Source of the DNA: Gracilaria domingensis
Taxonomy: Eukaryota; Rhodophyta; Florideophyceae; Gracilariales; Gracilariaceae
Assembly (NCBI GenBank): GCA_022539475.1
Contig: VCMS01000065.1
Coordinates: 310,001-374,000 of the forward strand
Direction: 5' to 3'
Length of the DNA: 64,000 nt
Positions 3,009 through 46,064 of this stretch are shown one piece after another. A program made the position numbers and the translations under genes. How positions within the stretch are numbered: the first letter of the stretch is position 1; the number at the start of each line of letters is the position of its first letter. Under the pieces are notes generated by a model. The model had not been told where the DNA came from. It did not search any database and worked only from the letters and a program-made list of their open reading frames with translations.

Positions 3009-4295
3009 CTACACTTTAGCGCGACAGAGCGGACATGTCTGCAGCCCAACATTCTGAGACTGATGTTTTGCCCACTCTATCCAGCATTCGTTATGGAAGG
3101 AATGCGCACAGACCAATACCTTGTGTTCCAAGTTTGTATGCATCTCCCCGATGCAAATGGCGCATACTTCCGAAACAGGAAAGGAGTTCTGTTCCCCCTT
3201 CCGGTTCGTCACTGACTGTTCAGCTGCTAGCGGTCGTGTAATCACCTCCATATAGTCGAACTGCGCCTGTCCAGCTTTTGCGCGATCCCAAGTCTCATAA
3301 TGGTCGCCCACTTTTGTCCACGGCAGAGAAAACTCCCTCATACTTCCGCTCTTCATGGCGCGAATTTTGTAGAAGCAGTTATTGAAACCGAGATTTACCT
3401 TCTTCACAATGCTCCCACACATGCAACACCTGGCCTCAACCCCATGTACATCAAAAGTTCCAAAGCGTTGATTGCAGATGACAACCTTTTGATATGCAGT
3501 GCAGTTCTTGTAGGTGCATCGACCTTCAAGGCAGAAACCGTAATCTGCCGCGCGCCACTCAGGAGCCGTCGCGCTCCACTGCACAGTTTTTTTCGCAGAC
3601 TCTTCTTCAACGTCCACTATTGTCAAAGGCAACATCGGACGACCCCCACCTCTCAAACGAATTACCAAGTGCAAAGATGTGCGCCCAGAGATCTTGTAGT
3701 GCCGCAACGTACGTCCATCTTCAAGCTGCTCTCCTTTGTGTATCAGTCGCTGCTGATCTCTTGGTATGCCCTCAATAAACGCTATCCTGTCCTTAACAGT
3801 TTCAACTATGTTGGTTTCTGCTACAGCTAGGGTCAGTGTTTTTCCGGTTAAAGTTTTTACGTACAAGGGCATGTTTTCTCCTCCAAAGGATGCCACGCTC
3901 AGCACAGTCGAGATATACAGCATATGCCGTACAAGTTTGCTACAATCCGTATAAGAAGATAACCAGATTCTGCGGTAGCCATCGGCAATTAGAAAGGTTG
4001 CTTCTTTGTCAGGTGTTGTTGTGAGCAAAAAAAGCTTAAGATCATGTAGCGTTGTGTTGAAGTCACACGACATGGTTATCGTTTCCCATTTCGCTGAACC
4101 GTTGACAAAGCGCAGTTCCAGCGTTGTAGCGGACTTCATGAGAACGTATTGTGAATCTTCGTACGGCACCACGCTCTTTGGCAGACCGGAGCAAGAAAGC
4201 TGTTCCGGGGGACCGAGGAAAAGTAGAATGAATGAATGAATGAATGAATGAATGAGGTAGAGCGTGGCGTGGACGAAGGGTGGCGTGCCGGACAC
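3009..4295 (-). CDS. Ubiquitin fused to a zinc-binding domain and RING-H2 finger (candidate E3 ligase)
   Basis: This intact frame encodes 428 residues. Residues 1-135 include a hydrophobic N-terminus encoded partly by a TGAA/CATT microsatellite and then a weak ubiquitin-like segment. Residues about 142-217 form a clear ubiquitin domain ([29 protein letters not shown], ending RLRGGG). It is followed by a Cys-rich domain with the pattern G-x-C-x4-C-x-A and GTFD plus CCMCG, seen in other eukaryotic ubiquitin-RING fusions. It ends in a C3H2C3 RING: CAIC, then CAHSFHNEC, then CPLC. RING proteins transfer ubiquitin from E2 to substrate. Relative to ubiquitin, positions 48 and 63 are Glu and Gly, while Leu8, Ile44 and Val70 of the binding patch remain. 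The true start is uncertain; Met codons further in are possible. Confidence 0.85.
4229..4256. repeat. Tetranucleotide microsatellite (TGAA)n
   Basis: About six to seven tandem TGAA units lie within the N-terminal codons of the ubiquitin-RING gene. On the minus strand they encode a repeating HSFI-type hydrophobic stretch. Length changes would shift or lengthen the N-terminus, which makes the annotated start doubtful. Confidence 0.8.
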
Positions 4296-5890: not shown

Positions 5891-8103
5891 TCACATTTCT
5901 GATACCAGAGGTTCGTTTCTCGACGCATAAGCGGGTAACTTTGCCCAATCCTCGAACGGGACGACTTGTACGATGCTGCGATTGGCTTGATCGTCCATGG
6001 TCACGCCGTCGTCTTCGTTTCTTGCATCGAACCATGTGATCCTGGTCCTTCGCTGTTTTGGCTCTTCTTTCCGACGGGGCCATGTTTCGCTTACGTCCTT
6101 GGTGGACACCGTATCATTTGGTGATTTTGTCATGGGCTCCATTTCGGGCATGAGCTCCTTCGCTAATTGGACGAGTCTATTTTCATTCAAACTCTTTGTG
6201 CGGAACTCTTCCCCGCCTCCGAGCAGCATCACGTCGCCTAGATCACCCCTTGGATACTCTGCTGCCACTCTTGCGGCATCATGGAAGGGAATGCCTGCCG
6301 TGTACACGCCACCCATCTTAACATTGCCGGGATAACTGGCAGCCCTGAGCCCCTTCTCTCTTTCATATACAACACGGTCAAACATGATTCTACCACCTCG
6401 TCCCACTCGGCCACGTGCCCGGATTGTGCGACGCATCTTGCGTGCTGGTTCACGCGGAAGGGATGGTGTCGGAGGTGTTGTGTTTAGGATATCACGAGCA
6501 ATGTCTTCGGTTGTGACAAATCGACGAGGACCGATCTTGGCCCCGGAGCCGAACCTGCCCCCGAGCCTACCGAAGTTTACCTTTGTACCGGGGATGGTTA
6601 TGGGTGGCGGTTCTCTTGCAGACGCCATCACCGTATTTCGCTCTGTGGCAGCGGCAAACACGCGATGATCGTATGGTGACACACCATAGTTGGCAAAGCC
6701 GCCCGCAAAATAACGCATATGTTTGAGACAGAAGTTTCCGTGGTAATCGTATCCATACATGTCGACGTTTGAAGAGGCGCTCGCAAGCGCGCGCATATCG
6801 ACGGAGGGGGTCGGAGAGCCTTCCTTCTGCCCTCTCTTCTCCGGCAGCTTGACTTTGCGACGATTCTTCTTGGACATCTTATCAGCTCCCATTTTCCTGG
6901 ATACTACGTTTACAGAATCTGGCAAGCTCAGGCCTCTGACCGGCACTATGACAGCTGAGGTTGATGCGGTGTTTGATCCGTAGGTTACTACGGGTTCAGT
7001 GTCACACGAGAAGGCGGCGCGATTGACGGCTTCCATACGTGCGCCGCCGTCCGCGGTTGCGCGAATTCGTTGGGAGAGCATCTTGAGCGCCAACAGCTGC
7101 GCCTTCTTGTTCTCTCGATGCACAACGCGTTGCAGTATCTGACGTAATTGGCGCAGCTCATCGCGTAGAACAAGCGCCTTACGAAAGTTGTCGTAGGTAT
7201 TCATGCGACGCGCAATGCCAGAAGCGGCATCGCGCTCGCGCGGACGGAAGGCAACGGCGGGATCGTGATTCTTTGGGTCGGGCGGCGGTTGAAAAATGCG
7301 AAGGAAGGAGATGGAACGGGATTGGCGGCGGCGAAGCCAGTGCTGGTAGAGCGGTTTGGTGACGATGTCATTGGATGTTAGTGCGGATTTGATGGCAGAG
7401 AAGGAAAGCAGATTGGAAGACTCGGATCGAGCTTGAGCTTTCTCCATGGCATCCATGGCACGCTCAAGCACGTCGAGATCGACATTGTTATCGCGCGCGA
7501 ATTGCTCATCGACGTAGTCGGCATCGTAGTCGACTATGTCGTCGATGAGGTCGAGGTCATCCCTGTCGAAGAGAATGTACTGCTGCGGGCGCTCGAAGGT
7601 GGCGTGAATGACAGGCGGCTGCACGCGGTTGACGATGGGCACGGGGATATCGGCGGTGGCGGCCTTTGCGTTGGCGCCAAACACAGAAGCGAGAAGGGCC
7701 TGTTGCAGATGTCGCTCCTCCTCTTCCGAGGGGTCGACGCCGGAGGCAATGGCCGGCAAGGCGCGGTTGACGACGATGTCATCCTCGTGGCGCAGGTCCT
7801 TGCTGCTCTTGATGACCGGCAGCGGCTTGTTGAGGTCGATTGGACGCGGGCGGAACGACGGGCGAGATGCGGCGTGCGCCGCGCCGCTGTCGCGGCGCGG
7901 CGGCCGCGACGGCGCAATTTTCTTGCGAAAAATTTTGAGGGGCGCGACGCGCCGGGCGGCGCAAATGTGTTTTGCGCCAATTACGGCGCGGCTGCGAGCC
8001 GCGTGGACACGCAGCCAGCGGCGGCGCGCGCGCCGGCGGCGACGAAGGCGGCTGCGAAGCGCGACGGCGCCCGCGGAAGGCGGCGGCGACGGCGGCGGCG
8101 GCT

Positions 8104-8153
<50 letters not shown>

Positions 8154-8470
8154 CGGTGCGCTGCGACGGGGGCGCGGCGACGGCGCGCGACGCTTGCGGG
8201 AGCTGCGAGCGCGCGCGGGCGGCGGCGGCGGCGGCGGCAGCGGCAGACGGGGCGCGCTGCTTGCGAGAGAGTGCGAGCGGGCGGGCGAGCGCTCTGCGCC
8301 GCACCGCTGCGCGCCGGCGGCGGCGCCGCCGCCGGCGCGCTCTTTTTGGCTGACAGCGCGCGCGACGTGGCCGCGTGTGCGCGCTGGCGCGGCTTGCAAC
8401 CACGATGATCTGTCGCTGTTTTGGCGCGCTTTTCGCACGCCACGCCAGCGCGCACGTTGGGAGCCCCCAT
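5891..8470 (-). CDS. EPL1: Enhancer of Polycomb-like protein (EPL1/EPC domain)
   Basis: The EPcA domain is clear from codons near 7858 downwards: SFRPRPIDLNKPLPV, then INRALP-like VVNRALPAIASGVDPSEEEE with HHLQ-like HLQQA, then YDADYVDEQF, LYQHWLRRR and DPAVAFRPRE. In yeast and animals this protein is the scaffold that holds the catalytic part of the NuA4/TIP60 histone acetyltransferase. The N-terminal 200 codons of the open frame are low-complexity Pro/Arg/Ala from a CGG-rich tract and contain no usable Met close to the domain. The real start is therefore probably in a separate upstream exon or further down; an AG acceptor-like site precedes the domain at about 7890. The start and extent above 7858 are unsure, the domain itself is not. 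The gene faces RAD21 head to head. Confidence 0.85.
7990..8160. repeat. CGG-rich low-complexity tract in a divergent promoter region
   Basis: Long runs of GGC triplets (densest at 8100-8152) lie between the conserved parts of the EPL1-like gene and RAD21. All frames on both strands are open here because the DNA is nearly A/T-free, so open frames are not evidence of coding. Confidence 0.85.
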
Positions 8471-8562
8471 CGCGCCGCCGTTGTGCTCTTCAACGCCGCC
8501 GTAGACGGCGCGTCAGCTCGAGCGCTCTGCGTGTGCGAGCACCCGCCGCCGCCGCCGCCGCC

Positions 8563-10602
8563 ATGTTCTACTCGCAGCACGTCCTCACCAAGAAGGGCCC
8601 GCTGGCCAAGATCTGGCTGGCCGCCCACATGCAGAACAAGCTCACCAAGGCCATGGTGTTCTCCACCAACATCCAGAACGCCGTCTCGTCCATCATCTCC
8701 CCCGACGTGCCCATGGCCCTGCGTCTCACCTCCAACCTGCTCCTCGGCGTCGTGCGAATCCTCTCCCGCAAGACCAAGTACCTGCTTCAGGAATCGTCCG
8801 ACGCTATGACGCGTCTCAAGCTCACCTTCCGCCCGCGCGCCGCCGAAACGCTCCCGCATAACACCGCGCCGCTGCCCGCCATCACGCTGCCCACCATCGA
8901 CGCGCTCGAGCCGCCCAACATCGACCTGCAGCTCGTGCCCACGCGCGTCGCCCCGCCGCCCTCGTCCGCCTTTCTGGCCGCCGATCAAGACATCACAATC
9001 GACCAGTTCGCGGGCGGGCTCATGGGCGGTATCATCGACGCCTTCGAGCTCGAGCCCCAGCTCCCGCGCGACGCCGCGCTCGACCTCGACCCGGAACCGC
9101 TGCTGTTCACCCCCAGTCAGCGCCAGCAAGGCACCCCCGTCACCCCCTCCGTGCGCTCCGAGCCTTCTGTCGAGCGCCTTCGCGCCGCCGAAGCGCCGCA
9201 ACCTCCCGAGCCGCCGCAGCTGTCTGTCGAGCGCGAGAGAGCCGACGTTGCCGAACCGCCTGATGAGGAGCCGCTCTTGTTCGGAACGCAGCCTATCACC
9301 GCCGCCGAGCCTGCTTCACCGCGTGAAGCGTCGCCCATGCCCGTCACGCCGACGCGCGAGAGGCTGCCGACCGATCTGGAACAGCCGCTCATGCCGCTGT
9401 CTGAGGAACCGCTGCCGCCGCCTTCGCCGTCCGGTGCGCTGCCCCCGGCGCGTATATCGGTGGGGAGTGATCGCCTTCAACTTGCACCCGAGGCTGAAAT
9501 ATCGCCCGCAGCGGCCACCCCCACGCGCGAACTTGCGCCACAAGTTGAGCCTGCCCAACCGGAGCTCATGCTGCCTTCTCCGCGCGTGACGCCGCGAATT
9601 CCACCGGGCTCGCCCGTGCGGCCTGAGGAGGACGAGGGCGAGCGTCGGGCGGCGTCAGTGGAGGGCGGACCGCCCACGCAGGAAGCTCCGCCCACGCCCA
9701 AGCGCGGCCGCAAGCGAAAGGTGTATGTGATGGCGGACGAGGGCGCGACTGAGATTTCGGCCGCCGAGTTTAGGGCGGCGCTTAATGATACCTCTGATTT
9801 GTTGCGGCAACCAACGCAAAGGAGACGCGTTGGCACGGCGCGCGCCACGCGCTTTGAGGAGCTCATTTCTCGACCCACCGTGCCACTGGCGCCGCAGCTC
9901 ATGGAGTTGTTTACGGCAAACTTTCGGGCCGATGAGCTGATTCTGGCGAGCCCGATTTCGGATGCGGATCTTGGGGAGAGGGTGCCGCGGGAGGAAGAAG
10001 AGCCGGAGAAAGAGGCCGAGGCCGAAGCCGAGGCCGAGAAGGAAGAAGAGCCACAGCCGGAGAAGGAGGTCACGGCAGATCCTTCGCTGGCTCAGCTCGC
10101 TGGGTTGGAAGCAGCGGTGCCGATAGAAGAGGAAGAGGAGATTATGCCTTCTGCTGCAGCGGTGCCAGCGCCTCGCGACACAATATCGCCCGTGCTGCCG
10201 CCGCCAATAGCGGAGATGGAGGAAGCACGGGCGCTCTCTATGGGGCGTGAGTCAGTGGGGGTGTCCGTTTCAGCTGCTCCTGAAGAGGAGGGTGTTTTCA
10301 CGCTGAGGCAGGTGGCGGAGACAGTGGCGCAGGTTGAGAGTGAAGAAAGCGTGACGGAGGCAACGGTGTCGGCGCGAACGCGCAAGATGCAAGAGTTGAT
10401 GCTGTCGCGGCTGGAGGACGGTGAGTTTGACTTTACGGATGCTCTTGCGGAAGTAGGCGGTCGACGCACTGCAGCAAGGTGCTTTTACGAATTGCTCAAC
10501 TTGAGCAACAAGAAGGCTGTTGCGTTGCGACAGGAGGAGGCGTACGGGCGAATATGGGCGCGGCCAATACAGCCGACGTTTAATGCACTCTTGGAGTCGT
10601 AA
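8563..10602 (+). CDS. RAD21: Cohesin kleisin subunit RAD21/SCC1
   Basis: The 679-residue product begins MFYSQHVLTKKGPLAKIWLAA, the typical Rad21/Rec8 N-terminus that binds the SMC3 neck, followed by MALRLTSNLLLGVVRILSRK. The middle is acidic, Pro-rich and probably disordered, with two EPLLF motifs. The last 60 residues (AARCFYELLNLSNKKAVALRQEE) form the winged-helix domain that binds SMC1. The protein closes the cohesin ring that holds sister chromatids together and is cut by separase at anaphase. The ATG at 8563 is chosen over the longer upstream frame because homology starts exactly there. Mitotic (RAD21) rather than meiotic (REC8) identity is likely but not proven. It is convergent with SWC5, with 50 bp between stops. 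Confidence 0.93.
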   Translation: MFYSQHVLTKKGPLAKIWLAAHMQNKLTKAMVFSTNIQNAVSSIISPDVPMALRLTSNLLLGVVRILSRKTKYLLQESSDAMTRLKLTFRPRAAETLPHNTAPLPAITLPTIDALEPPNIDLQLVPTRVAPPPSSAFLAADQDITIDQFAGGLMGGIIDAFELEPQLPRDAALDLDPEPLLFTPSQRQQGTPVTPSVRSEPSVERLRAAEAPQPPEPPQLSVERERADVAEPPDEEPLLFGTQPITAAEPASPREASPMPVTPTRERLPTDLEQPLMPLSEEPLPPPSPSGALPPARISVGSDRLQLAPEAEISPAAATPTRELAPQVEPAQPELMLPSPRVTPRIPPGSPVRPEEDEGERRAASVEGGPPTQEAPPTPKRGRKRKVYVMADEGATEISAAEFRAALNDTSDLLRQPTQRRRVGTARATRFEELISRPTVPLAPQLMELFTANFRADELILASPISDADLGERVPREEEEPEKEAEAEAEAEKEEEPQPEKEVTADPSLAQLAGLEAAVPIEEEEEIMPSAAAVPAPRDTISPVLPPPIAEMEEARALSMGRESVGVSVSAAPEEEGVFTLRQVAETVAQVESEESVTEATVSARTRKMQELMLSRLEDGEFDFTDALAEVGGRRTAARCFYELLNLSNKKAVALRQEEAYGRIWARPIQPTFNALLES

Positions 10603-10652: not shown

Positions 10653-11767
10653 TCACCTTTGCTTTCGTTTTCCCTTTTGCTCAAACTCCCATTCTCGCAC
10701 GTCGCTTCGCGCAAGAAAAGCCATTCGATCGGTGTACCTTTCCTTTCCTTTCTTGTAGGTCTCCAGCTCTTCGTTGACGTTGTCATCCTTCTTGAACTGG
10801 TCCCACTGCTTGCGAGTTCCGTCCAGCACGGTGGGCGGTTTCTTGCCGCGCACGAGTCCCAGCACGGCCTCCAGGCCGGTTGCAGCAGCTTGGGTTTCTG
10901 GCGGGGTTTCGGTGTTGGTGAGCTCGGTCTGCTCCTTCTCCAGGTCGTGCAGCATTCGGACCTTGAAGGGCTTGGAGGGTTTTGCAGCGGGCTTCTGAAG
11001 CCAGCTATTGAGCGGCTGGTTGTGCACGTCGGCGCGCTGCTGCGGCTTTGACGCCGCGCCGTTGTTCATCTCAGCCCATATATCGTCGATGCTCTTCATT
11101 GTCAACACACACAGGCACACACACGCAGGGGGGGGGGGGGAGAGGGCCAACACAGGTGGGTCAGACAAGAACGATTTGAACACGAGTGTTCCTTTTAACA
11201 AGAACAGCAAACAAAAAAAAACACACAGTGGTAGACAGACAGAAGAAGGATTGCTAACTCACGTTGTTCGGCGGCGCGACGCGCGCCCTCTTCAACGGCG
11301 GCTGCTCGCCGTTGCTCTCGGGCTTGGCGGCAGCGGCGGCAGCGGGCACGGCGTTGGCGGCGTGCGAGTGTGCGGGCGGGGCGGGCTTGTCCACGACGGG
11401 CGGCGCGCTCTCGGCCACGGTTTGCTGCGACGGTTGCGGCAGCGGCGCCTTCTCCGCGGGCGGCTTGGGCTCCGGTGGCGCGTTGGGTTGCGCGCTGGCA
11501 GGCGGCTCGCTCGCGCGCGCGGCTGCGCTTTCCGCGGGTGTGGCGGCCGGAGCGGACGGAGCCGACGGAGCCGACGGCTCCGACGGAGCAGGCGCGACGG
11601 CGGGCGGGGGGCCGGCAGAGGAGGCGGACGCAGCGGCGGCGGCGGAGGACGCGGCGGCGCCAGAGGCAGACGCGGCGGCCGAGGAGGAGGCGGCAGCCGA
11701 GGCGCGGCGATCCGGCAGAGGGGCGTCGTCGCTGAGCAGGTGGTCGTCGGCGTCGTCGTCGTCGTCG

Positions 11768-11811
<44 letters not shown>

Positions 11812-11946
11812 CGACGGCGGGCGGATGCCCGCGGGGCGGCGGCGCATGCGCGGCTCGGAGCGGTCGGGCTGCGGCGGCGGCACGTAGTCGGCGTCGTCCG
11901 AGTCGGACGACGCCAGCTGCTTGGACGCGAGCAGGCGCAGGTCCAT
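10653..11946 (-). CDS. SWC5: SWC5/CFDP1 (BCNT) family protein, two exons
   Basis: The gene reads as complement(join(10653..11093,11263..11946)). Exon 1 (228 codons) starts MDLRLLASK and carries an acidic N-terminus with a run of 14 Asp followed by more Asp, then low-complexity Ala/Pro/Ser. The donor GTGAGT follows codon AAC at 11263, and the acceptor AAG lies before 11093; the 169-bp intron is phase 0 and joins NN to SIDDIW. Exon 2 ends in the BCNT-C domain: VLDGTRKQWDQFKKD, then YTDRMAFLARSDVREWEFE. Family members are subunits of the SWR1/SRCAP remodeller, which swaps H2A for H2A.Z; the acidic end resembles H2A-H2B binding regions. The predicted protein has 374 residues. The splice sites are inferred by eye but fit in phase and consensus. 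Confidence 0.88.
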
Positions 11947-11969
11947 CTCGGCTGGGGGGTGCGTGGGGA

Positions 11970-11989
11970 GGGGGGGGGGGGGGGGGGGG
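11970..11989 (+). repeat. Homopolymer of 20 G
   Basis: An uninterrupted G20 run sits 24 bp upstream of the SWC5 start, within the divergent spacer shared with the F-box gene. Shorter G runs occur at 11131-11142 (in the SWC5 intron) and near 13879. Confidence 0.9.
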
Positions 11990-12076
11990 CGGCGGAGCGA
12001 TGGGGGCGGCGCTCAGGCGCGCGCCGCGGCGGCAGCGCGGGCGCCGATATGCGGCAGCGCGCGCGGTCGGCGCGGC

Positions 12077-12140
12077 GTGGCGGCGTGGCGGCGTGGCGGC
12101 GTGGCGGCGTGGCGGCGTGGCGGCGTGGCGGCGTGGCGGC
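12077..12140. repeat. 8-bp minisatellite, eight units
   Basis: Eight perfect tandem GTGGCGGC units lie in the 429-bp divergent spacer between SWC5 and the F-box-like gene. Because 8 is not a multiple of 3, overlapping long open frames here are fortuitous. Confidence 0.92.
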
Positions 12141-12375
12141 GTGGGGCGCGGGGCAACGGGCGCGCACGTGGCGGGGCGCGTGCGCGGCGCGCGGGCACGG
12201 CGCGGCACTCGCGAGCGGCGGCAGCGCGGCGGTTGCGTGCGGCGGCGCACGCAAGCGCGCGGCGGCGCGGCGCGGCGCGGCGGCGCGCGGCGGCGGCGCG
12301 CGCGGCGCTTAGGCGCGCGCGCGCGGCGGCGACGCGCGGCGGCGGCGCGGCGACGCGCGCGCGCGCGCACGATCG

Positions 12376-13857
12376 ATGGTGCGCTGCCGCGGGCGCTGCG
12401 CGCCGCACCTGCTGCAGCTGCCCGACGCGGTGCTGGCGCGCGTGGTGCGCGCGCTGCCGCGGCGCGACGCGCTGGCGCTGGCCGAGTGCTCGCAGCGGCT
12501 GGCGGCCGTGGTGGCGGCCGCCGCCGACTGCTGCGTGGACGCGGTGGCGCTGGACGACGCGCTGCTGCCGCTCGCGCGCTCGCACCCCGCGTTCGCGCGC
12601 CGCGACCCCGCGCGCCTCGCCGCCGCCGTCAAGCGCGCCGGCGGCCGCCTGCGCGCGCTGCGCCTGCCCGCGTACGACGCGTCCATGCCGGCCGCGCACG
12701 CCGCGCCGCTGGCCGCCGCCGCCGCGCACGCCGCGCGCCTGCGCGCGCTGTCGTTCGTGGAGCCGCCGCCGCCGCCCGCGCGCGCCGCGCCGCCGCCGCC
12801 GCCGCCGCCGCCCGCGCTGCTGCCCGCGCTGCGCGCGCTGCTGCCGCGGCTGCGCCACCTCGGCGTGGCGGCGCTCACGCGCGCCGCCGTGCTGGACGCG
12901 CTGGCCGCGCCGGCGTTCCGCCCGCGCTCGCTGGCGCTGCACTGCGTGGCCGAGGCGCTGCAGCCGCGGCTGCTGGCGCTGCTGCCGCGCCTGCCCGCGC
13001 TGTCGCACCTGGCGCTGTCGTTCGGCAGCGCCGCGCAGCCCGCGCCGCTGCCGCGCGCGTTCGTGCAGCAGCTGGCCGCGCGCGTGCGCGCCTCGCTGCC
13101 CAACCTGGCGCACCTCGCGCTGCTGCGCGCGCCCGCGCGCGCGCCGCTGCGCGCGCTGAGCGACGCGCCGTCGCAGCCGCGCGCGCGCCGCGAGCTCAGC
13201 CTCGCGCTGCAGCAGCTGGCCGACGCCAAGCGCGCCGCCGCCGCCGCCGCCGGCGTCTGCGCGCTGCGCTCGCTCACGCTGGCGCGCGTGCTGCGCGACG
13301 CGCCGCCGCCGCTGGCGCTGTTCGCGTTCGGCGTGTCGGCGCGCACGCGCGTCAACCTGTACCTGCGCGACGCGTACCTCACGCACGCGCCGCACGGCGG
13401 CGCGGACGGCGCGCCGCCGCCGCCGCCGCAGCTGCTGGCCGCGCGCGTGGCCGCGCCGTCGTCGCACCTGCTGGCGCGCCCGGCGCGCTTCCTGCAGTCG
13501 CTGTGCGCCGCGCCGCGCGTGAGCACGCTGCAGCTGAGCGCCGACGTGCTGCGCTTCCCGTGCACGCTGCTGTACTCGCTGTTCTCGCAGCTGCCGCGCC
13601 TGCAGCAGCTGGTGGTGGCGCCGCCGCTGCGCCACGCCGGGCCGCCGCCGCTGGCCGCGCTGCCGTGCGTGCTGCACGCGCTGCGGCTGTACTGCCCGCA
13701 GCTGCGCGACGTGCGCCTGCAGTACGCCGCGTACGCGCCGCACCGCGGCGGCGCGCGCGAGGCGCTGCGCGCGCTGCGCGCGTTCGGCCGGCTGCGCCCG
13801 CACGTGCAGCTGCACGACTTTGCGGAGCTGCTGGAGCTGTCGCTGCTCAGCGAATGA
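12376..13857 (+). CDS. F-box-like protein with leucine-rich downstream region
   Basis: The 493-residue protein begins with an F-box-like segment at residues 12-48: LLQLPDAVLARVVRALPRRDALALAECSQRL. The rest contains repeated L-x-x-L-x-L segments such as LPRLRHLGVAAL, LPALSHLALSF and LPNLAHLALL, which suggest irregular leucine-rich repeats. F-box proteins bring substrates to SCF ubiquitin ligases through SKP1; that role here is inferred from the domain only. Codon use is extreme, with nearly every third position G or C, as in the next gene. This frame is preferred over several overlapping open frames because it alone gives an organised protein and an ATG next to the F-box. Confidence 0.75.
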   Translation: MVRCRGRCAPHLLQLPDAVLARVVRALPRRDALALAECSQRLAAVVAAAADCCVDAVALDDALLPLARSHPAFARRDPARLAAAVKRAGGRLRALRLPAYDASMPAAHAAPLAAAAAHAARLRALSFVEPPPPPARAAPPPPPPPPALLPALRALLPRLRHLGVAALTRAAVLDALAAPAFRPRSLALHCVAEALQPRLLALLPRLPALSHLALSFGSAAQPAPLPRAFVQQLAARVRASLPNLAHLALLRAPARAPLRALSDAPSQPRARRELSLALQQLADAKRAAAAAAGVCALRSLTLARVLRDAPPPLALFAFGVSARTRVNLYLRDAYLTHAPHGGADGAPPPPPQLLAARVAAPSSHLLARPARFLQSLCAAPRVSTLQLSADVLRFPCTLLYSLFSQLPRLQQLVVAPPLRHAGPPPLAALPCVLHALRLYCPQLRDVRLQYAAYAPHRGGAREALRALRAFGRLRPHVQLHDFAELLELSLLSE

Positions 13858-14086
13858 CCACAGTAAACAGATTTGCGGGGGGGGGGGGGATGGGGCCCAG
13901 CACCACGGACACCGTTACACATGCCTTCATAGATCGCGCGCGCGCTGCGCATGGAGTGGATGCGTTTCTTCTGTTTTGTTCTCGCGTGTGGCGGCACTGC
14001 ACTGAGGAGTTGGCAGCTGGCGCCAACTCGCCGCCGCGTCAGCAGTAAAAGACGTTAGCCAGCACGCCTTCGCGCCGCCCGCCGCC

Positions 14087-15097
14087 ATGGCGCTGTGGTT
14101 CGAGCAGCTGGTCGGCTTTGCCGAGCAGTCGCCGCGCCAGGTGCGCGCGCAGCTGTACGTGCGCGGCGCGCAGCTGCACTCGCGCGTCAACGGCGCGGCG
14201 CTGCGCCACGGCGCGCTGCGCACGCCCTCGCTGGCCGAGCTGCGCGCCGCCACGCGCGCCGCGCCATCGCGCGCCGGCCCGCGCGCCGTCGTGCGCGAGG
14301 CCGTCGCCGACGCGCGCGACCTGCACGCCGACGCGCGCTGCAACGCCGCGCTGTTCCAGGTCGCGTCGCAGTTCAACCTGCTCGAGATGAGCGCGCCCTC
14401 GCTCACGCCCGAGGCCGGCGTCGGCCGCTACCAGCTCGACGCCACGCAGGGCCCCGCCTGCGCCGTCGCGTGCGGCGCCGGCACCATCTTCCGCAACTAC
14501 TTTGCGGACGTGGGCGGCCGCGTGGGGCAGGACGCCGCGCACCAGATCGACTGCCTGGCCGAGCTGGGCGCCGCGCTGGGCAACCGCCGCCAGGCGCTGT
14601 GGAGCATGCAGAACGGCTACGTGTTCGCGACCGCCGCCGGCCTGCGCGCGGTGCACGACCGCCTGCGCGCCGCCGACGCCGCGCGCCGCGACGCGCTGCG
14701 CGCGCTGCTGCGCGTCGGCGTGCAGCACGACACGCAGGTCACGCTGCGGAACAGCGCCAACCGCGTCACGCAGGTGTACTGCGCCGCGCTTCCCGTCGCG
14801 TACTCGCGCCACGCCAGCGCGCTGTGGGAGCCGTTTGCGAGGCTCGTGCTGGAAGCCGCGTACGAGAGCACGCTGCGCGCCGCCATGCTCAACCGGCGCG
14901 ACACCGGCTGCAACCTGGTCTTCCTCACCCTGCTGGGCGGCGGCGTGTTTGGCAACCGCGTCGAGTGGATTGTCGACGCCATGGAGCGCGCCATTGCGCT
15001 CGTGCCGCACTCCGGGCTCGACATCACCATTGTGAGCCACCGCCAGCCGTGCGCCGCAGTCAGACGTCTGCTAACTGTCACCGACGCGCCTGCTTAA
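14087..15097 (+). CDS. Conserved protein of unknown function (336 residues)
   Basis: I recognise this as a conserved family of protists and algae but know no established function. Characteristic segments are FQVASQFNLLEM near residue 90, TQGPACAVACGAGTIFRNYF near 125, and LVFLTLLGGGVFGNRVEWI near 285. The late GGG-x-FGN element followed by a Trp-Ile helix recalls nucleotide-binding loops such as those of macrodomains; that is a guess. The gene is intact, extremely GC-rich and lies just upstream of the amine oxidase. A degraded copy of its 3' part follows that oxidase at 17206, so the two genes were duplicated together. Confidence 0.8.
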   Translation: MALWFEQLVGFAEQSPRQVRAQLYVRGAQLHSRVNGAALRHGALRTPSLAELRAATRAAPSRAGPRAVVREAVADARDLHADARCNAALFQVASQFNLLEMSAPSLTPEAGVGRYQLDATQGPACAVACGAGTIFRNYFADVGGRVGQDAAHQIDCLAELGAALGNRRQALWSMQNGYVFATAAGLRAVHDRLRAADAARRDALRALLRVGVQHDTQVTLRNSANRVTQVYCAALPVAYSRHASALWEPFARLVLEAAYESTLRAAMLNRRDTGCNLVFLTLLGGGVFGNRVEWIVDAMERAIALVPHSGLDITIVSHRQPCAAVRRLLTVTDAPA

Positions 15098-15594
15098 CAA
15101 CGCAACAACAGTTATTTTAACGATGCCCTTTTTGGAGATTCTGCTTTGGAGCCTCAGCTCCCACCATTCTCTCCAACCACTGCTTCGCTGCTCTTTATAC
15201 CGTCGAATGGTAACTGCACTTCAACCATAGCGTCAAAGAGCCGCTCATATATCACGCTGCTTATGAACAACGGCCCAAACCGAATTCCGTTGCAAGCCAG
15301 TACAAATTCGCGTTAATCTATGTATCATCTTCGCTATAATGGTGAGTAGATTCTCTCAAACAATCTACTACCCTCGGACATGCCATTGCAGTATTCATCA
15401 TCAATAAATGATGATGCCCCGGGCCCTGGTTGCATGTAACGAAGCTTTCGGAAGCCTGCCTTTACCGACGGTACGTGCCTGCCTTCAAATGGCAGTTCCG
15501 GTTCACAAAACTTGCCATACTACTTAAAAAAACCATCCTCCTCCTGAGCAATCGAGAAATTCATGCCGAATGCCACACGCACACAAACCACGTC

Positions 15595-24807: not shown

Positions 24808-26602
24808 ATGCTTCATGTATTGATGATCGACCCACGCATGCCTAACGTCTTGTTGAGCAACATATTGATATCGTTATTGATACTCCTGAAACCTATCGTC
24901 GCAGAAATCCCAGTATCAAAAGCTCTCTCAGGGACGAAATTGAGATGTTGCGTGGTTCATGAACCTCCAATCGTGTACATGGATCCACAGGTATATAGCA
25001 ACGTAAGTGCAACTTAAGAACGGAATCCCTCGGAGCATTGTTCTGACTTCTTGACAAATTTCTTTTTCTTCAAAAAGGGTGGAATCAACGGATTGATTGT
25101 CAAATACTTGCAAGAGATGCAAGGGCTTCTTGACTGGCAATGTTCATCAATCACTCCGTACAAACATGGAAATGCGACCAGCTTTAATATGTTCATTGAG
25201 ATGATGGATAAATGTACCACAAACGGCTCCATAAGAGATGACCCACAATGCATGTGCGACATCGGAATCGGAGGTTGGTTCCAGACGGTCGAACGAATTC
25301 AAGTCGTTGATATGCTCCCGGCGTTTGTTTTTGACGGCATTCGTGTCGTATTCCATGTCTCTAGATCATTTTCTTCAGGCAAAAGTTTTTTTTTTCTTAC
25401 GACGTTCGACTTGCAAACTTGGGCTTGCATCTTTTCTCTTATTATGCTCTTTTTGCTGGCAAAAATATTGGATCGCCGGTTTATGCCACATATAGGTGAA
25501 CTTGAAGATGGAGATGGTTTTCGCCATATGTGGAACCTCAGTCGTGTAGTAAGCGCATTGAAAAGCATAGGTAAGCAGCATTAGTTAAGGTTCGCGCAAA
25601 GAGTAGTCAATTTTCTGCATCTGATCTAGGGGGTTTATCGTTTTTCTTGGTGTAGTGAATAGAATTCTTCTTCAACCGAGTTCTGATTCTGATCAAAATG
25701 AAGGGGCTTGGCACAGCTGGTTGTTAAATCTTACTCTCGGCATTTGCGGCTTATTCTTGGTTTTATCTTATGAAGCGAAGATGACGTACGTTTCCCTACT
25801 CCAAAAGATGCTGGAAAACTTAGTGTAACATGGCTCTAACGACAAGTTACTTCTCTCTCTGTTTAGGGCGTCTCTTGTCCAAGAATCGATAAAATCGGAA
25901 TACCGGTCCGTAGAGGACTTCAAAACATGTCGCATCAGACCTGAAGAAGTTTGTCTACCGGGGGGAAGTGCCATGGAGACATTTTGGAATACAGCCATTG
26001 CTACTAGGTAAGAATTCTATTGCAACAGTTTGTCACTAGTTTCCATTCTCTACAGTTTTCTGCATGAGTATTGCTAACAAATTTTCATGTTCGTGTTGCA
26101 CTTCGTATTAAGCCACTGTCACCAAGGCACTCATGTTCGACGGGGGTCTTTTGAAACGGTGCTAGAAGCTGTGGAAAATGGAACGTGCAAGTTTGGGCTC
26201 CATCTGGATTCAACCTTGAGCGCTGCAATTGACAGCAATTATTGTGGAAGCCTTCTCAAGAGCGAAAAACTCTTGTACGTCGCGGGATTGGGTATGGTTC
26301 TTCCGAAGAACTCACCACTTACTAGGCCTATGACTTTGGGTACTTTGAAACTAAGAAATGAAGCTTCAAATCCGAGTTTGGATGAATATTTTCAGAAACA
26401 TTCAACATGTAATCTCAGTGTGGAGAGTGAGACGATGTTTTCTAAGCTCCGGATATTCTTTGTCATGGCTTTCGTAGTAGGTGGATACTTTCTAATAGTT
26501 GCGTTTGTTGGAAGGTTTAAGAACAAAAGAAGTAGGGAAAAACTCAGTACCTTTTCAAAGAATCCAGAAGAAAAGTTATCCGGTGCGGAGCTGCAAATGT
26601 AG
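24808..26602 (+). CDS. Ionotropic glutamate receptor-like channel, five exons
   Basis: Proposed join(24808..25002,25078..25570,25656..25785,25867..26007,26113..26602) gives 482 residues, and all introns (75-105 bp) are GT-AG. A signal peptide (LLSNILISLLILLKPIVA) is followed directly by ligand-binding lobe S1: EPPIVYMDP, then GGINGLIVKYLQEM, then ERIQVVDMLPAF. Arg138 there aligns with the Arg that binds the ligand alpha-carboxylate in the family. M1 lies at 175-198. M3 (about 251-273) ends SYEAKMTASLV, the counterpart of the SYTANLTA gate motif. S2 has GLGMVLPKNSPL, and M4 is at 434-455. There is no amino-terminal domain. The M1-M3 segment is polar and does not look like a standard pore loop. 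The predicted role is a plasma-membrane ligand-gated cation channel. The last acceptor (26112) is the weakest splice call. Confidence 0.82.
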
Positions 26603-39921: not shown

Positions 39922-42900
39922 CTATACATCGCTCTCCACGTCGCTTCGTACCACAAAGGGGTCTGCAGAGACTGTGCGTTCGCGCGAGCGAGATGCGGCA
40001 CGCTCCAACGACTTGGATTGCAACCCAATGGGGCTACTAACTTTCTTAGCAGCAGCACTCCCAGCAGAGGATTCTTCACTTCTTCTGACGTCCTTCCTCG
40101 CCGAGCTCTCGGATTCGCGTAAAGCAGCACCAACGTGACCAATCCCAGCGAGGGATTCCATCTCGTTCTGAGATTCAGCACCTCGGTCAGGTTCAGCGAA
40201 TGCCGGAGCAACCGGAGCGCGATTTAAACTGTCCTCTGTCTCCTTAGGGTGCGATACGGCTTCCGCATTTTGCGCCAATACCGTAGACGGAGGGCGAATC
40301 TCATGCAACTCAGTAGAGGGTGTAGGTGTAACCCGTGAGAGTCCGGGGTTATCCTTGAGCAACTCTGTTGTTTCAGGCAAGTCAGAAAGACCGCGCTGCG
40401 GGTGGGGCAAAACTGATGGACGGTTTGCTGCAGTACCCGACTGTTCGGTAACTTGATGCGACGATGGACCGTTTCCGGTACCCGGCGCTGCGATAACTTC
40501 CTGTATACGGCTCGGTGTGCGGTATACGCGATCTCGCGATACCCGCTCGTGCTGATTATCGATATCAAGCACGACGGTAGTCTCTTGTACGGATACAACC
40601 CGATAGGGGCCACTGGCGATTGGAGAGAGCTTATGGCGCTTCTCCTTCTCAGGATTGTAGTACTCCTTCCTGAGAAACACATAATCACCAACCCGCAGCT
40701 GCGGTAGCGGCCTACGGATTCGGCTATCGAAATTGCGCTTGTAGGCGAGTTGAGCTTTCTCCATAGAGCGCTTAGCAATAGGCACCATCGTGGTTAACCA
40801 TTTCTTCCACGCTTCGCGGTGTAGCCTCGGTGTCGAGTATTCGTCCATGGTTGGATGTGCCTCAATGGCAAGAGGAGGTGGTCTCCTTGACAGGACTAAC
40901 TCGAAAGGGGACAACGACGTTACCCGATGTACCTGGGTGTTGTATGCGTAGGTAATGGCGTCTGTGTACAAATCCCAAGTCTCGGGGTGTTCCGCAACGT
41001 ATGATCTCAATGCACCAAGAATGGTTCGACTGAATCTCTCGGCCTGACGATTAGTTTGGGGGTGATACGTTGTTGTAAACAGATTCCTAATGTCGAGGAT
41101 GCGACAAACGTCTTGAAAGAATTTCGACGTGAACTGGGAGCCGTTGTCGGAGAATAAGTGTACCGGTGGTCCATAGAAAAAGACCCAGTGGGTAACAAAC
41201 GCCTGAGCCACAGCGGCAGCAGTTATCCGCTTGAGCGGCACAGTCCGTACCAGCTTTGAGAAGCGATCGGTGATTACCAAGAGGTATTGATTCCCATGCG
41301 AGGTTTTGATCAATTCGCCAAGAATGTCAATTGCGACAGACTCTAGCGGCGCCCTTGCCGGGAATAGCTTCAACTTCTTTGAATGCTTCCTCAGCTTGAT
41401 GTCGTTCTTGGCACATTCCTGACAGGATCGACGTACTGCATAGCAGTCGAATGCCATTGCCGGCCAGTAAAAATCCTTTCTCAATGTGAGATACAACTTT
41501 CTTCCTCCCGGATGGGCTCCCAACTTCACATAGTGAGAGAGGTGAAGAACTCGACTCTGTAAGGAGTGCGGCACCACTATTTGTGGGTTCGTTGACACCT
41601 TTCTTATTAGGTAGCCTTGATTATTCACGTGAAAGGGCAAGTGGTATCCACCGTTCAGACGGGCTCGTACCTGTGTACAGAAGGGATCCATCTGCTGTTC
41701 CCGTATCACCTCCTCGAGCGTGATGGGTATAAATGACCCGGTACCCGGTTCAGCGGATTGTGTGACGAGTATATCGTCACAAAAGTCATCCGTCACAATT
41801 TCCATACTCCCCTCGAGGTCACCAACCATAAAACATGGGATGTCGGCGTCCTCGGTAGGATCGGCTTCAGCTGCTGTGCCCAAACGGGAAAGGGCGTCCG
41901 CCTGGAGGTTAAGGGAGCCTTTCTTGTACACTACTTCGAAGTCGAATTCCGACAGTCGGAGTCTCCAACGCATCAGGCGTCCCGACGGTTCGGTGATTTC
42001 CAGCAGCCAGCGAAGGCACTTGTGGTCGGTGTGTACACGAAAGTGGGTTCCCATCAAATATGGTCTGAGTGTCGATAATGCCCAGACTACGGCAAGAAAT
42101 TCCTTCTCAGAAACTGAGTAATTCCGTTCATGGACGTTTAGCGATCTCGACCAGTACCCAATAGGTTGTCGTTCCCCGGTCTCATGGGTTTGAAACAAAG
42201 CGCACCCAACCTGGTTTGCGCTGGCGTCAGTGTCTACCTCATAGGGTAACCCAGGTTTGGGGAGAGCCAGAATTGGCGGGGACGTCACGGCTTCAACCAA
42301 TGCCGCGAACGCGGAGGTCTCTTCACGTCCAAAGGGCTCCAATTCAACAGGTTTTCCTTTCGTAAGGAGCTTGTTCAACGGTGAAGCAATGTCCGCAAAG
42401 TTCGCAACGAAACGTCGGTATACGTTACACAGTCCTAAGAAGGATCGCAGCTCTGTTTGAGTTCTCGGGTATTTCGCCTCTTTCAAGGATTTGACCCGCA
42501 CTTCATCGACTGAAAGCTTTCCGGGACGGATTATGTGACCCAGATACTTAACCGATTCGGTGAAGAACTCGCACTTCTTGAGTTTCAATGTGATCCCTGC
42601 GTCGCGCAGTACTCTCATAACGTCCCGCACATGGGCCAGATGATCATCCAGATTGTTGGAAAAAACGACCATATCGTCCAGATTCACCAAACATGTGGTC
42701 CACTTAAATCGCGCCAGTAGGATATCGACCGCACGCTGGAATGTAGCGGGTGCATTAGTTAACCCAAAGGGCATTCTCCGGAAACGGTATAGGCCTTGAT
42801 GGCATACGAACGCCGTCTTATCTCGGTCTTTCTCCCTGATGGGAACCTGCCAGTATCCCCAGTTAGCGTCAAGGGTGGTGAACACGTTCGCGCTCCCAAG

Positions 42901-43233
42901 AGAATCGATATATTCGTCCATCCGGGGTATCGGATATACATCTTTCACTTTCATCGCATTCAACTTTCGGTAATCGATACAAAATCTCCAAGATCCATCC
43001 GGTTTCGGAACTAGCACTACTGGTGACGCCCAAGGGGATTGAGCGGCTTCAATAACGCCAGCCCGCAACATCTTCTCAACTTGAGACTTCTCTCCCTCCC
43101 GAGCCTTCGGTCCGGCCCGATAGGGGTGTTGCGCAATCGGCCGAGTATTCGGAAGCAAGTCAATGCAATGCTCAGTTACTCCAATCGTTCCTAGATTCCG
43201 TCCCACATGGGAGTGAATTCCCGCAGCATCTCG
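39922..43233 (-). CDS. pol: Ty3/Gypsy retrotransposon pol (RT-RNase H-integrase), 5' part lost in the assembly gap
   Basis: The frame is open from the gap edge at 43233 to the stop at 39922, about 1,100 residues with no lesion. Domains in order are reverse transcriptase (SPVVLVPKPDGSWRFCIDYRKLN, catalytic LVNLDDMVVF), RNase H (YEVDTDASANQVGCALFQ), the integrase zinc finger (H-x-H then CQEC) and the DDE core (VAIDILGEL, LFSDNGSQF, ERFSRTI with its Glu). The GPYRVV module follows. The last 180 or so residues are a low-complexity Pro/Ser/Glu tail with no chromodomain. Gag and protease should lie beyond the 107-N gap. The uninterrupted frame suggests a recently active copy. Confidence 0.95.
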   Translation of the reverse strand, partial: RDAAGIHSHVGRNLGTIGVTEHCIDLLPNTRPIAQHPYRAGPKAREGEKSQVEKMLRAGVIEAAQSPWASPVVLVPKPDGSWRFCIDYRKLNAMKVKDVYPIPRMDEYIDSLGSANVFTTLDANWGYWQVPIREKDRDKTAFVCHQGLYRFRRMPFGLTNAPATFQRAVDILLARFKWTTCLVNLDDMVVFSNNLDDHLAHVRDVMRVLRDAGITLKLKKCEFFTESVKYLGHIIRPGKLSVDEVRVKSLKEAKYPRTQTELRSFLGLCNVYRRFVANFADIASPLNKLLTKGKPVELEPFGREETSAFAALVEAVTSPPILALPKPGLPYEVDTDASANQVGCALFQTHETGERQPIGYWSRSLNVHERNYSVSEKEFLAVVWALSTLRPYLMGTHFRVHTDHKCLRWLLEITEPSGRLMRWRLRLSEFDFEVVYKKGSLNLQADALSRLGTAAEADPTEDADIPCFMVGDLEGSMEIVTDDFCDDILVTQSAEPGTGSFIPITLEEVIREQQMDPFCTQVRARLNGGYHLPFHVNNQGYLIRKVSTNPQIVVPHSLQSRVLHLSHYVKLGAHPGGRKLYLTLRKDFYWPAMAFDCYAVRRSCQECAKNDIKLRKHSKKLKLFPARAPLESVAIDILGELIKTSHGNQYLLVITDRFSKLVRTVPLKRITAAAVAQAFVTHWVFFYGPPVHLFSDNGSQFTSKFFQDVCRILDIRNLFTTTYHPQTNRQAERFSRTILGALRSYVAEHPETWDLYTDAITYAYNTQVHRVTSLSPFELVLSRRPPPLAIEAHPTMDEYSTPRLHREAWKKWLTTMVPIAKRSMEKAQLAYKRNFDSRIRRPLPQLRVGDYVFLRKEYYNPEKEKRHKLSPIASGPYRVVSVQETTVVLDIDNQHERVSRDRVYRTPSRIQEVIAAPGTGNGPSSHQVTEQSGTAANRPSVLPHPQRGLSDLPETTELLKDNPGLSRVTPTPSTELHEIRPPSTVLAQNAEAVSHPKETEDSLNRAPVAPAFAEPDRGAESQNEMESLAGIGHVGAALRESESSARKDVRRSEESSAGSAAAKKVSSPIGLQSKSLERAASRSRERTVSADPFVVRSDVESDV

Positions 43234-43340
43234 NNNNNNNNNNNNNNNNNNNNNNNNNNNNNNNNNNNNNNNNNNNNNNNNNNNNNNNNNNNNNNNNNNN
43301 NNNNNNNNNNNNNNNNNNNNNNNNNNNNNNNNNNNNNNNN
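43234..43340. other. Assembly gap (107 N)
   Basis: Unknown bases. The gap cuts the Gypsy element in its 5' part, and the sequence on the other side does not continue the element recognisably. Confidence 1.
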
Positions 43341-45004
43341 ATAGTCTGCTTCGCTTTGGAACTAAGCTAGTTTGTCATGGGGCGCGCGAGCTAGCAGAGG
43401 CTGGCACTCAAAAACAATCAAGCAAATTTTGAATATCTAAATTCCATTTCGCGCAGTTTAGTTCTTGGGTCCCCTAGTTTTTGTAGAGGTTCTACTTCGC
43501 CGCACCACCCCATTCACTCTTTTCCGCGACCCTCTCTCAAAACTGCACTCGTGCTAGTTTGCGTTTCCATTTTCCCCATGTTGCAATGCCAATCGCGACT
43601 CATCTCACCTCAATCATCCCATCACTTCTTCCCAGTCCACACCACCCCCGCTATTTTACCCATTACTCGCCCATCAACGCGTTCGCATCCTCTACTCTCC
43701 TGTTCCGGTATAAACGTCATTTTGTAGAAGTCAGTGACAACCCTCCCCCTTCTCGTATATACCGCCCGCCCAAAACGGCTCTCACATCCTCCCATCCTTT
43801 CTCTTCTGTCCACTCTAAATCCTTCGCAGTCCGCCGCTACCTCCCGCACACCTACCCAGTCACCACCGGACTCCGACTCGCCTCCGCCGCACCTCATCCA
43901 CCACTCTTCACTCTCCTTACGCCTCTTCTTCTTCAGCACGCTCTCCATCCACCAACCCACCACCCTTTGTCTTCGGGTTCACAGCGAGACCCTATGCACC
44001 GCCCCCTTCCACACTTCCCTTCTCCGTCTTTCCCTCCACTCCTTTCACCGTCTCTCTTCCACCAATCTTGATGCCTCTTCACAGCTCCTTCACCGCTCCT
44101 TCCTCCAGCACGTCCATACCTCTCGTTCAGAACCCTTAATCTCCCTCCTATGCAAGCTATCATCCAACCTCCCCTTCCGCACGACTCCACTATCCATACA
44201 CATAATTTCTCAGCTCCACTCCCAATACCGACAACGAATTCCGCAGGCTCGAAATCGCCTCAACCGAAACACTACTACCACCCCCACTCAGCACCACACC
44301 GCCCATTTCCGTTACAATCTCCACAATTCCATCGTCCAGTTGCTCCTTCATCACCAACCCCAACATCCCCCACCCTCGCCTTCATCTCCCCACCAAACCG
44401 CATCTCCCTGTCACCCTCTCGCCCCCACTCTCTATCTGGTCTCCAACCTCTAACTGACTCAGATGGACCGCACCCCTTCTCTCCATTGCGACCCCCTCCA
44501 CCTCCAATTCTACACCCTTCTCCACCTCATCACCATCCCTTCTCCTCGCCTCACACTTCTTTCCTTCATCAGCCACTTCGTTCTTCTGCGACATCCGACC
44601 AGCCGCCGTAATCACGTCCTCTTCCCGCTTTGGTGACGGCGTCGGCGGTAATCTCCTCCCCCTCCAACAGCGCTAACAGCTCCTCATCCTTCACGTATCC
44701 GTTCGACATCTTCAGAACAAGAAGTAGTAGTTGGATCGAAGTTCCGCTGCAATACAGTGCAATCGAGCTAAACTGTGCTGGTCCACCCCCACTGTCCAAG
44801 CACACGAGCTATATCCAGCACTATGATTGTCCCTGTTTCCCTCATCCATTTCCCGCCAAAACATCTACTGTACACCTTCGCACCTTCCACTATTTGAGGG
44901 CCACCTCTCTGTCTCCTCTTTCGCGCTCACATAATCCCCACCCACCTCGCCTCGACCGGCAATATTTTTCTCTTCCACCATAACCCACTCGATGGTTATA
45001 GCAA
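43341..45004. other. Strongly pyrimidine-biased region
   Basis: From about 43500 to 44990 the plus strand is dominated by C, T and A with few G, so all open frames are compositional. On the minus strand a short frame near 44712-44569 (MSNGYVKDEELLALLEGEE) looks more protein-like and could be a first exon, but I cannot extend it. Confidence 0.4.
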
Positions 45005-45306
45005 AACAGGAAGATATTGCCAGTGGAGCAAGCTAAGGACTAGTGATTGTACTTAGAGTTGCTCACCCTCTGTCTCGACTGGGGGCATCTTCTTCTTCCG
45101 TCACATCCTTTGTGCGTTGTGACAAAAAAAGAATATGTCACCACTCGACACCGGATGGGTAACTATGATAGCACGTAGAGTAGTTCATCCTCCTCTCCAG
45201 CGTCCACTGGGGATATATTGATGTTCTCTCACATCCTTGACCGGTTGTGATACAAGAGAAATACATCTCCAATGGAGACGGAGAATATAGTCGTGATAAC
45301 ACGTAA
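45005..45306. repeat. Diverged tandem repeat, about 2.4 units of 125 bp
   Basis: The units at about 45055-45178 and 45179-45306 share the ordered words GTTGCTC/GTAGTTCATCC, ACTGGGG, TCACATCCTT, TTGTGA, AGAATATG/AGAATATAG and GATA(G/A)CACGTA(G/A)AG. A partial unit precedes them from about 45005. Confidence 0.6.
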
Positions 45307-45370
45307 AGGTAACAATGTAATAAACAATAAAATTTATGCTACTATCTCTAACCAACCTTTCGAAAACCAG

Positions 45371-45652
45371 CTATGACATGAGCTGGGTTACTCGAGCAAA
45401 GATGGCAGATCCTGCAACTGAAATGTTTGCCCCGGCCTTCACTACTCCTTTCACAGTACTCAGTCCAATACCCCCATCCACCTGTATCCCTATTCTTGGG
45501 TACAACTTCCTTGCATGTCGCACCTTGTCAAGAACACCCTCCATAAACGCCTGTCCTCCAAACCCTGGCTCCACCGTCATCAACAATAACATGTCTACAA
45601 CTCCTTCGTTCATAAGTGCTTCTACGACCTTTATAGACGTATTCGGGCGCAA
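45371..45652 (-). pseudogene. rpe: Ribulose-phosphate 3-epimerase C-terminal fragment
   Basis: The frame encodes the C-terminal 90 or so residues of the pentose-phosphate/Calvin-cycle epimerase: LLLMTVEPGFGGQAFME, KVRHARKLYP, IQVDGGIG, and AGANISVAGSAIF. The VEPGFGGQ loop and the catalytic QVDGG Asp are present. The first 130 residues of the enzyme are not found upstream, where a plus-strand gene begins within 420 bp, and the extreme C-terminus is replaced by an early stop. It is therefore a gene fragment. Confidence 0.88.
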
Positions 45653-46064
45653 TCCAACTCCATCCTTTTAATTATGGCAATCCAAGTGAAGCTATAGAGC
45701 CCGTTCACGTCATTTATAAAGCCAAAATGGCTCCTTTCATCCTGTATTCAAGCTTCCCGTAACTCGTACTTTACAACTACTTTACAACTCAGGTTCGAAA
45801 TCAGTTTCATTCATTGTACACTTTCTACTCTTCCACCTACTTTTCATAAAACATCATCACACTTTGTGGCTTGTCGTCTCATACAAGCCCTATCATTCCT
45901 TCAGTACAATCACATATCATACATTTCGCTCACTTTCACAAAGTGAACCATGTTCCCGTTCTGCGCTTCCCAACCGTTTGTACTTAAGTATCACTCTTTA
46001 CCCCAGCAGTTCTCCGCCCCATCTTCTATTTCTATCGTCACACAAAAACATTCGAACACTTGCA

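Follow-up and report, generated by a model that had tools for sequence, protein, structure and literature searches.

The gene at positions 24808..26602 (+) of the window, by which we mean the whole 64-kb stretch of DNA that was analysed, appears to encode a minimal subunit from a red-algal branch of the ionotropic glutamate receptors (iGluRs), one that has no amino-terminal domain and that probably forms a channel opened by a small amino acid (we give this reading a probability of roughly 0.7). Descent of the protein from iGluRs is hardly in doubt. The gene, which we term the window copy, belongs to a family with at least 18 loci in the assembly; the family had gone unmentioned in an earlier, sequence-only reading of this DNA.

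Homology, gene model and gene family

When the 482-amino-acid product of this gene was compared by itself to the PDB, it matched the animal AMPA receptor GluA2 over amino acids 114-473 (E = 2.4e-10). A profile of 13 family members matched GluA2 with E = 1.7e-19 and hit 317 distinct sequences at E ≤ 0.01; the 60 listed were AMPA-type or "Glutamate receptor" chains, some of them chimeric. Under the Pfam model Lig_chan, the lone protein scored 18.9 bits (E = 0.0014), which is below the cut-off of 30.8. Across the 13 members, Lig_chan matched 11 at E ≤ 0.1 (best 4.4e-8), SBP_bac_3 matched six (best 0.0044), and Lig_chan-Glu_bd matched two (best 7.4e-4). Thus, the iGluR homology that the sequence-only reading proposed is confirmed; it had named profile matches of the joined protein as the way to judge this, and those to the PDB and with the family profile are significant, but the lone protein stays under the Lig_chan cut-off.

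Over the stretch from M2 to S2, the family profile gave 45.6 bits for GluA2, 23.2 for GluN1, and 18.0 for the plant receptor AtGLR3.4, whereas 600 shuffled iGluR segments (200 per reference) reached 5.5 bits at best. On these alignments, the protein is an iGluR homologue, and by score the animal AMPA receptor seems nearer to it than the plant GLR does, three references being too few for a placement. The 482-aa protein is 19.8% identical to GluA2 (over 399 aligned residues), and the range across the 13 members is 15.4-21.6%. The gate motif at the end of M3, SYEAKMTASLV, is of the SYTANLAAF type; A270 and T273 are invariant (13/13), and most family members have the form SYEASMTAS. Amino acid 271 (25778-25780, the K of SYEAKM) is Lys in the window copy, Asn in GluA2, and Ser in 10 of the 13 aligned members. 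The best single PDB match (8fps, a GluA2 chain) likewise has Lys at the equivalent position.

The gene model has five exons on the forward strand, which join in frame from the ATG at 24808 to the TAG at 26600-26602. Exon 1 (24808..25002) encodes a hydrophobic leader (about aa 13-31) and the beginning of S1. Exon 2 (25078..25570) encodes the rest of S1, including Arg138 (25294-25296), then M1 (about aa 175-199, 25405-25479), the M1-M2 linker, and the beginning of M2. Exon 3 (25656..25785) covers the end of M2, the pore turn LQPSSDSD (Q236 at 25673-25675), and M3 (about aa 247-270 by hydropathy) through SYEAKM. Exon 4 (25867..26007) holds the end of M3 (TASLV) and the initial part of S2 (GGSAMETFW), and exon 5 (26113..26602) holds the rest of S2 (with Asp352 at 26207-26209 and Cys419 at 26408-26410), M4 (about aa 430-455, 26441-26518), and a basic tail. 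The resulting order is leader-S1-M1-(M2)-M3-S2-M4, with M2 placed by hydropathy and position only.

All four introns are GT-AG: intron 1 (25003..25077, phase 0, at aa 65), intron 2 (25571..25655, phase 1, aa 230), intron 3 (25786..25866, phase 2, aa 273), which interrupts the gate motif, and intron 4 (26008..26112, phase 2, aa 320). Their positions and phases are matched in 9, 15, 14, and 13, respectively, of the 17 other distinct loci, an agreement that is not fully independent because the aligner was guided by the 482-aa protein and favours the GT-AG consensus. Intron 1 has the same phase and lies at most 8 residues away in three further loci, and intron 4 is one residue away in one further locus. 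These common sites support the five-exon model, as judged from the paralogues' sequences. Spliced alignment of the 482-aa protein to the window returned the identical four introns, which is a circular check. The sequence-only reading had joined in-phase exons across four introns into a signal peptide, S1, M1, M3 with SYEAKMTASLV, S2, and M4, and the joined protein and its hydropathy bear this out.

Its claim that the amino-terminal domain is absent also stands: S1 directly follows the leader, and the paralogue models start (at hand-chosen codons) a few dozen residues upstream of a conserved LRCC motif. A profile search of the whole assembly for ANF_receptor had no match (7 of 14 control genomes were positive), which is a weak blank because an equivalent search also failed to detect the iGluR genes themselves.

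To enumerate the family, the assembly (77.9 Mb in 680 contigs) was searched with the 482-aa protein. There were 70 matches, which were grouped into 19 places. The copies on contigs C369 and C370 are identical (2201/2201 bases) and were counted once (the duplicate is L012), so that there are at least 18 distinct loci, including the window copy, on 14 contigs: pairs on C154, C22, C140, and C3, and singles on ten others. This is a lower bound because the whole-genome search scores the best candidates only. Two divergent members used as queries found no further place in the assembly at E ≤ 0.01. Whole-assembly searches with the Pfam profiles Lig_chan, Lig_chan-Glu_bd, and SBP_bac_3 found no match (controls were positive in 0/14, 11/14, and 12/14), but these blanks prove little, as an exon-split and divergent family is undetectable by such a search. 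Beyond the assembly, two peptide patterns per search matched 87 stretches in bacterial or archaeal genomes and 37 in viral contigs, none of which was related by tblastn at E ≤ 1e-3.

Fourteen models are free of internal stops (the window copy, L009, L010, L011, L013, L014, L016, L017, L018, L019, L020, L022, L023, and L025). The other four of the 18 loci (L015, L021, L024, and L026) are damaged or partial in their models, which suggests either turnover of copies within the family (birth and death) or errors in the assembly. These four and the duplicate L012 were excluded from all conservation counts. The profile alignment was built from 13 open models, L018 being omitted for its closeness to L019. 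Start codons of the paralogues were picked by hand, end trimming was applied to several members, and the L020 model lacks a start Met. Among the 14 models, a tree (rooted for drawing only) puts L009 and L010 nearest to the window copy by path and gives L025 a very long branch.

Some members lack introns: L011 (C369) is without introns 1 and 3, L013 (C45) is without introns 1 and 4, and L025 (C61) is without all four. This is intron turnover inside one gene family. Introns that the aligner placed outside the four common places (in L013, L018, L020, L021, L023, L024, L025, and L026) were taken as artefacts, as was a shifted first intron in L017; the aligned C-terminal tails of L018, L023, and L025 contain such an artefact.

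The segment between M1 and M3

The sequence-only reading described the segment between M1 and M3 as polar and atypical, and it considered a receptor without a classical pore. The polar character does not hold: aa 222-234 (VVSALKSIVNRIL) form a hydrophobic, M2-like stretch with a mean hydropathy of +1.35. The best 13-residue values are +0.76 for GluA2, +0.32 for GLR3.4, and +1.02 for GluN1, these comparators being shorter, so that fewer positions were tried. M2 hydropathy is above that of GluA2 in 11 of 14 members (the exceptions are L011 with 0.55, L020 with 0.60, and L022 with −0.10). From the hydrophobic stretch to the Tyr of M3 there are 46 residues in the window copy, versus 38-40 in GluA2, GLR3.4, and GluN1. 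With such a stretch ahead of a diverged turn, a receptor without a classical pore is not supported.

What does remain atypical is the turn itself. In the window copy it reads LQPSSDSD, without a QQG motif; L009 has MITQSDSD and L010 has GAIITQPEAD, as compared to GAFMQQGCD in GluA2. By MAFFT, Q236 falls in the column of GluA2 Q587, which adjoins the column of the Q/R site, and Gln is present there in 5 of 13 members (the window copy, L009, L010, L022, and L025), with the caveat that this alignment is uncertain by 1-2 residues and that counting from M3 without gaps would move Q236 to another column. These five, with Gln in the turn, make up one turn type. A second type (L013, L014, L016, L017, L019, and L023) has a turn of Ser/Ala-Asp-Asp/Glu and no Gln. 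Column 238 is acidic in 11 of 13 members (all but the window copy and L025). Between M1 and M3 of the window copy there is no K+-type TVGYG filter. The M1-M2 linker has a net charge of 0 to +9 in all 14 members, which is compatible with the cytoplasmic side; the charges of the M2-M3 loop (−3 to 0) and of the tail after M4 (−4 to +5) give an inconsistent topology signal. Given the hydrophobic stretch and the pattern of Q236 and the turn, it is plausible that a diverged re-entrant M2 loop is present.

Could the protein instead be a ligand-binding receptor or decoy that is descended from iGluRs but does not conduct? Its M2 would have degenerated, and it would signal via partner proteins or conducting paralogues, if at all. 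Several observations point this way. Column 232, in the M2 helix, is Arg in 9 of 13 members, including the window copy (it is Lys in L023, His in L025, and Ala in GluA2), and an Arg here is odd and would argue against an ordinary cation pore. Also, the linkers on either side of M2 are among the least conserved parts of the protein (mean pairwise identity of 0.21 for M1-M2 and 0.27 for M2-M3, with the leader also at 0.27; 78 pairs, L025 excluded), and M2 itself is less conserved than M3 (0.38 versus 0.62). However, M3, which carries the gate, is the best-conserved segment of all (S1, M1, M2, S2, and M4 are at 0.38-0.47), in most members M2 is about as hydrophobic as in conducting iGluRs, and Gln is retained beside the Q/R-site column in the five members of the first turn type. 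We consider a non-conducting receptor unlikely.

We favour a ligand-gated channel, and we propose that it would work as follows. Four subunits would assemble, and the S1/S2 clamshell of each would clamp an alpha-amino acid, with Arg138 on the carboxylate and Asp352 on the amine. Closure of the clamshell would pull open the M3 gate, and cations, perhaps including Ca2+, would pass via the diverged re-entrant M2 loop. Different copies might provide different ligand tuning or form heteromers.

The ligand domain and its likely ligand

The most distinctive feature of the family, which was absent from the sequence-only reading, appears to be a cysteine-rich ligand domain. The ectodomain of the window copy has 12 cysteines, which would leave room for six disulphides, and each of them is retained in 13 or 14 of 14 members (the ectodomain of L025 has just 8). 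The domain is probably heavily disulphide-bonded. GluA2 C773 aligns with Cys419, which is Cys in 13/13, and C364 is invariant and lies one residue off the column of GluA2 C718. We take C718-C773 to be a disulphide in GluA2, to which C364 and C419 would correspond.

The main anchors for an alpha-amino acid seem to be retained. GluA2 R485, which we take to contact the alpha-carboxylate, aligns with Arg138, and this residue is Arg in 13/13, in agreement with the earlier proposal that Arg138 is the family's ligand-carboxylate Arg. GluA2 E705, presumably the contact of the alpha-amine, aligns with Asp352 (Asp or Glu in 12/13, and Arg in L025), and Y450 aligns with Tyr93 (aromatic in 10/13). The amine-binding side is only partly retained, as P478 is replaced by Gly and T480 by a hydrophobic residue in 12/13 (Thr is kept only in L025).

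In contrast, the pocket for a side-chain carboxylate appears to be mostly lost. In GluA2, Ser654 and Thr655 presumably contact the side-chain carboxylate of glutamate. At the S654 column, the window copy has Ser307 and 10/13 members have Gly; at the T655 column, the window copy has Ala308 and 11/13 members have Ala, with Val in GluN1 and Phe in GLR3.4 (the column was assigned by eye). So, the glutamate-selective Ser/Thr pocket of AMPA and kainate-type receptors is not retained as a pair, and a small or neutral amino acid is therefore expected rather than glutamate. Specifically, we would expect glycine, alanine, serine, or 1-aminocyclopropane-1-carboxylate (ACC) over glutamate.

The alternative is a true receptor for L-glutamate, as in GluA2. 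The retained Arg and acidic anchors fit this, as does the Ser at the S654 column of the window copy, and spore release in Neopyropia is sped by 0.1 mM L-glutamate, though not by higher doses (PMC8969420, in excerpt). These points must be set against the Ala at the T655 column in most members, the Gly at the S654 column in most members, and the loss of T480 in 12/13. On this balance, we think that a glutamate receptor is quite improbable.

As for a small amino acid as the ligand, sexual reproduction in Pyropia is promoted by ACC but not by cycloleucine, and the study's authors make a case for an ACC receptor that has yet to be identified (PMC7028691, in excerpt). A more speculative idea, which we hold as tentative at best, is that the whole family consists of cysteine-rich chemoreceptors without an amino-terminal domain, with two main pore types and possible heteromers, that are tuned to glycine- or ACC-like amino acids and that include candidates for the red seaweed receptor of ACC or amino acids. 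In any case, the family is defined in sequence and supplies candidate receptors for ACC, glycine, or glutamate in red seaweeds, with relevance to reproduction and wounding in farmed nori. It also offers a test case for iGluR function when the amino-terminal domain is missing and the ligand domain is rich in cysteines.

Known relatives, origin of the DNA, and the rest of the window

GluA2 (PDB 8fps and 4u1x) shares with the window copy the order S1-M1-M2-M3-S2-M4, the SYxA gate, the ligand Arg, the acidic contact for the amine, and the C-terminal Cys of the ligand domain. It differs in that the window copy has no amino-terminal domain, has 12 conserved ectodomain cysteines, and has a diverged pore turn and side-chain pocket, at the low identity given above. 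Plant GLRs retain the amino-terminal domain. AtGLR3.4 (PDB 7lzh) is similar in M3 (SYTASLTS versus SYEASMTAS in the family) and in having a residue other than Thr at the T655 column, but it has the lower profile score, and the plant turn FFSHREN is missing from the red algal family. Two other lineages share features with the family. Most chemosensory IRs of insects, a separate lineage, lack an amino-terminal domain, and they make up an expanded family whose ligand pockets vary. Many of them have lost the ligand Arg, whereas all 13 aligned members of our family retain it. Bacterial GluR0 also has no amino-terminal domain, but it lacks M4 and has a K+-type selectivity filter; the window copy has M4 and no such filter.

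Multiple gene copies are another feature in common with plants, as Arabidopsis has 20 GLR genes (PMC10281673, in excerpt). The presence of iGluRs in red algae was already known, as red algal GLRs are in print (PMC7028691 and PMC8969420). These homologues, from Pyropia/Neopyropia, Porphyra umbilicalis, and Gracilariopsis chorda, were compared to ours by description only. In the available excerpts, there are two in each of Porphyra umbilicalis and Gracilariopsis chorda (PMC7028691) and three in each Pyropia genome (PMC8969420), that is, 2-3 genes per genome versus at least 18 loci here. Isoforms in P. yezoensis (PMC8079949), 11 GluR genes in the green seaweed Ulva compressa (PMC9266709), and diatom GLRs (PMC11085791) are also mentioned in excerpts. 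In the open-licence PMC literature, as far as its excerpts go, we came across no account of a family that is expanded, cysteine-rich, and devoid of an amino-terminal domain.

The top PDB matches are animal receptors, and the family profile favours GluA2 over the plant GLR on the same stretch, so we considered contaminating DNA, for example from a small animal. This is very improbable. The 18 distinct loci are spread over 14 contigs, one of them 1.0 Mb long, and from this number and length the iGluR contigs probably belong to the alga. The identity to GluA2 is low (19.8%), and the Pyropia GLRs are themselves reported to resemble sequences from Branchiostoma and Octopus (PMC7028691, in excerpt). 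The assembly also includes a red algal plastid contig (C680, 179,836 bp), which has eight near-full-length phycobiliprotein matches. A 164-aa ORF on C680 encodes an R-phycoerythrin alpha chain whose best match is 1eyx (R-phycoerythrin, which we take to be that of Gracilaria), and a 177-aa ORF encodes a beta chain that best matches 8u0f (labelled as a bacterial fluorescent protein) and then 1lia (R-phycoerythrin). Plastid-encoded R-phycoerythrin indicates a red alga, as had been guessed from the window.

The family is under purifying selection: pN is below pS in every pair (91/91) that the 14 open models form, and dN/dS is 0.24 for L018 and L019, a ratio that is usable in few pairs because synonymous sites are saturated in most. 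Hence a dead gene or a chance frame deserves almost no weight despite the four damaged or partial loci, as the window copy is open and shares its splice sites with its paralogues.

Elsewhere in the window, there are two retroelements: a gypsy-like polyprotein of 1150 aa at 39922-43374 (−), with RVT_1, RNase H-like, and integrase domains, and a copia-like element at 58429-61248 (+), with rve and SH3_retrovirus in one ORF, RVT_2 in its neighbour, and an intervening stop. The region 11000-15100 reaches 81% GC, with both strands carrying long ORFs that overlap, and it has numerous short tandem repeats; of its ORFs, four were scanned, and none had a Pfam match at E ≤ 0.001. An ORF at 7939-10602 (+), in GC-rich surroundings, has the N- and C-terminal domains of Rad21/Rec8 (cohesin kleisin), and another at 3009-4295 (−) has a ubiquitin-like domain and a RING finger. 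Finally, the most extreme GC skew of any 2-kb step in the window (−0.44) is at 44001-46000.
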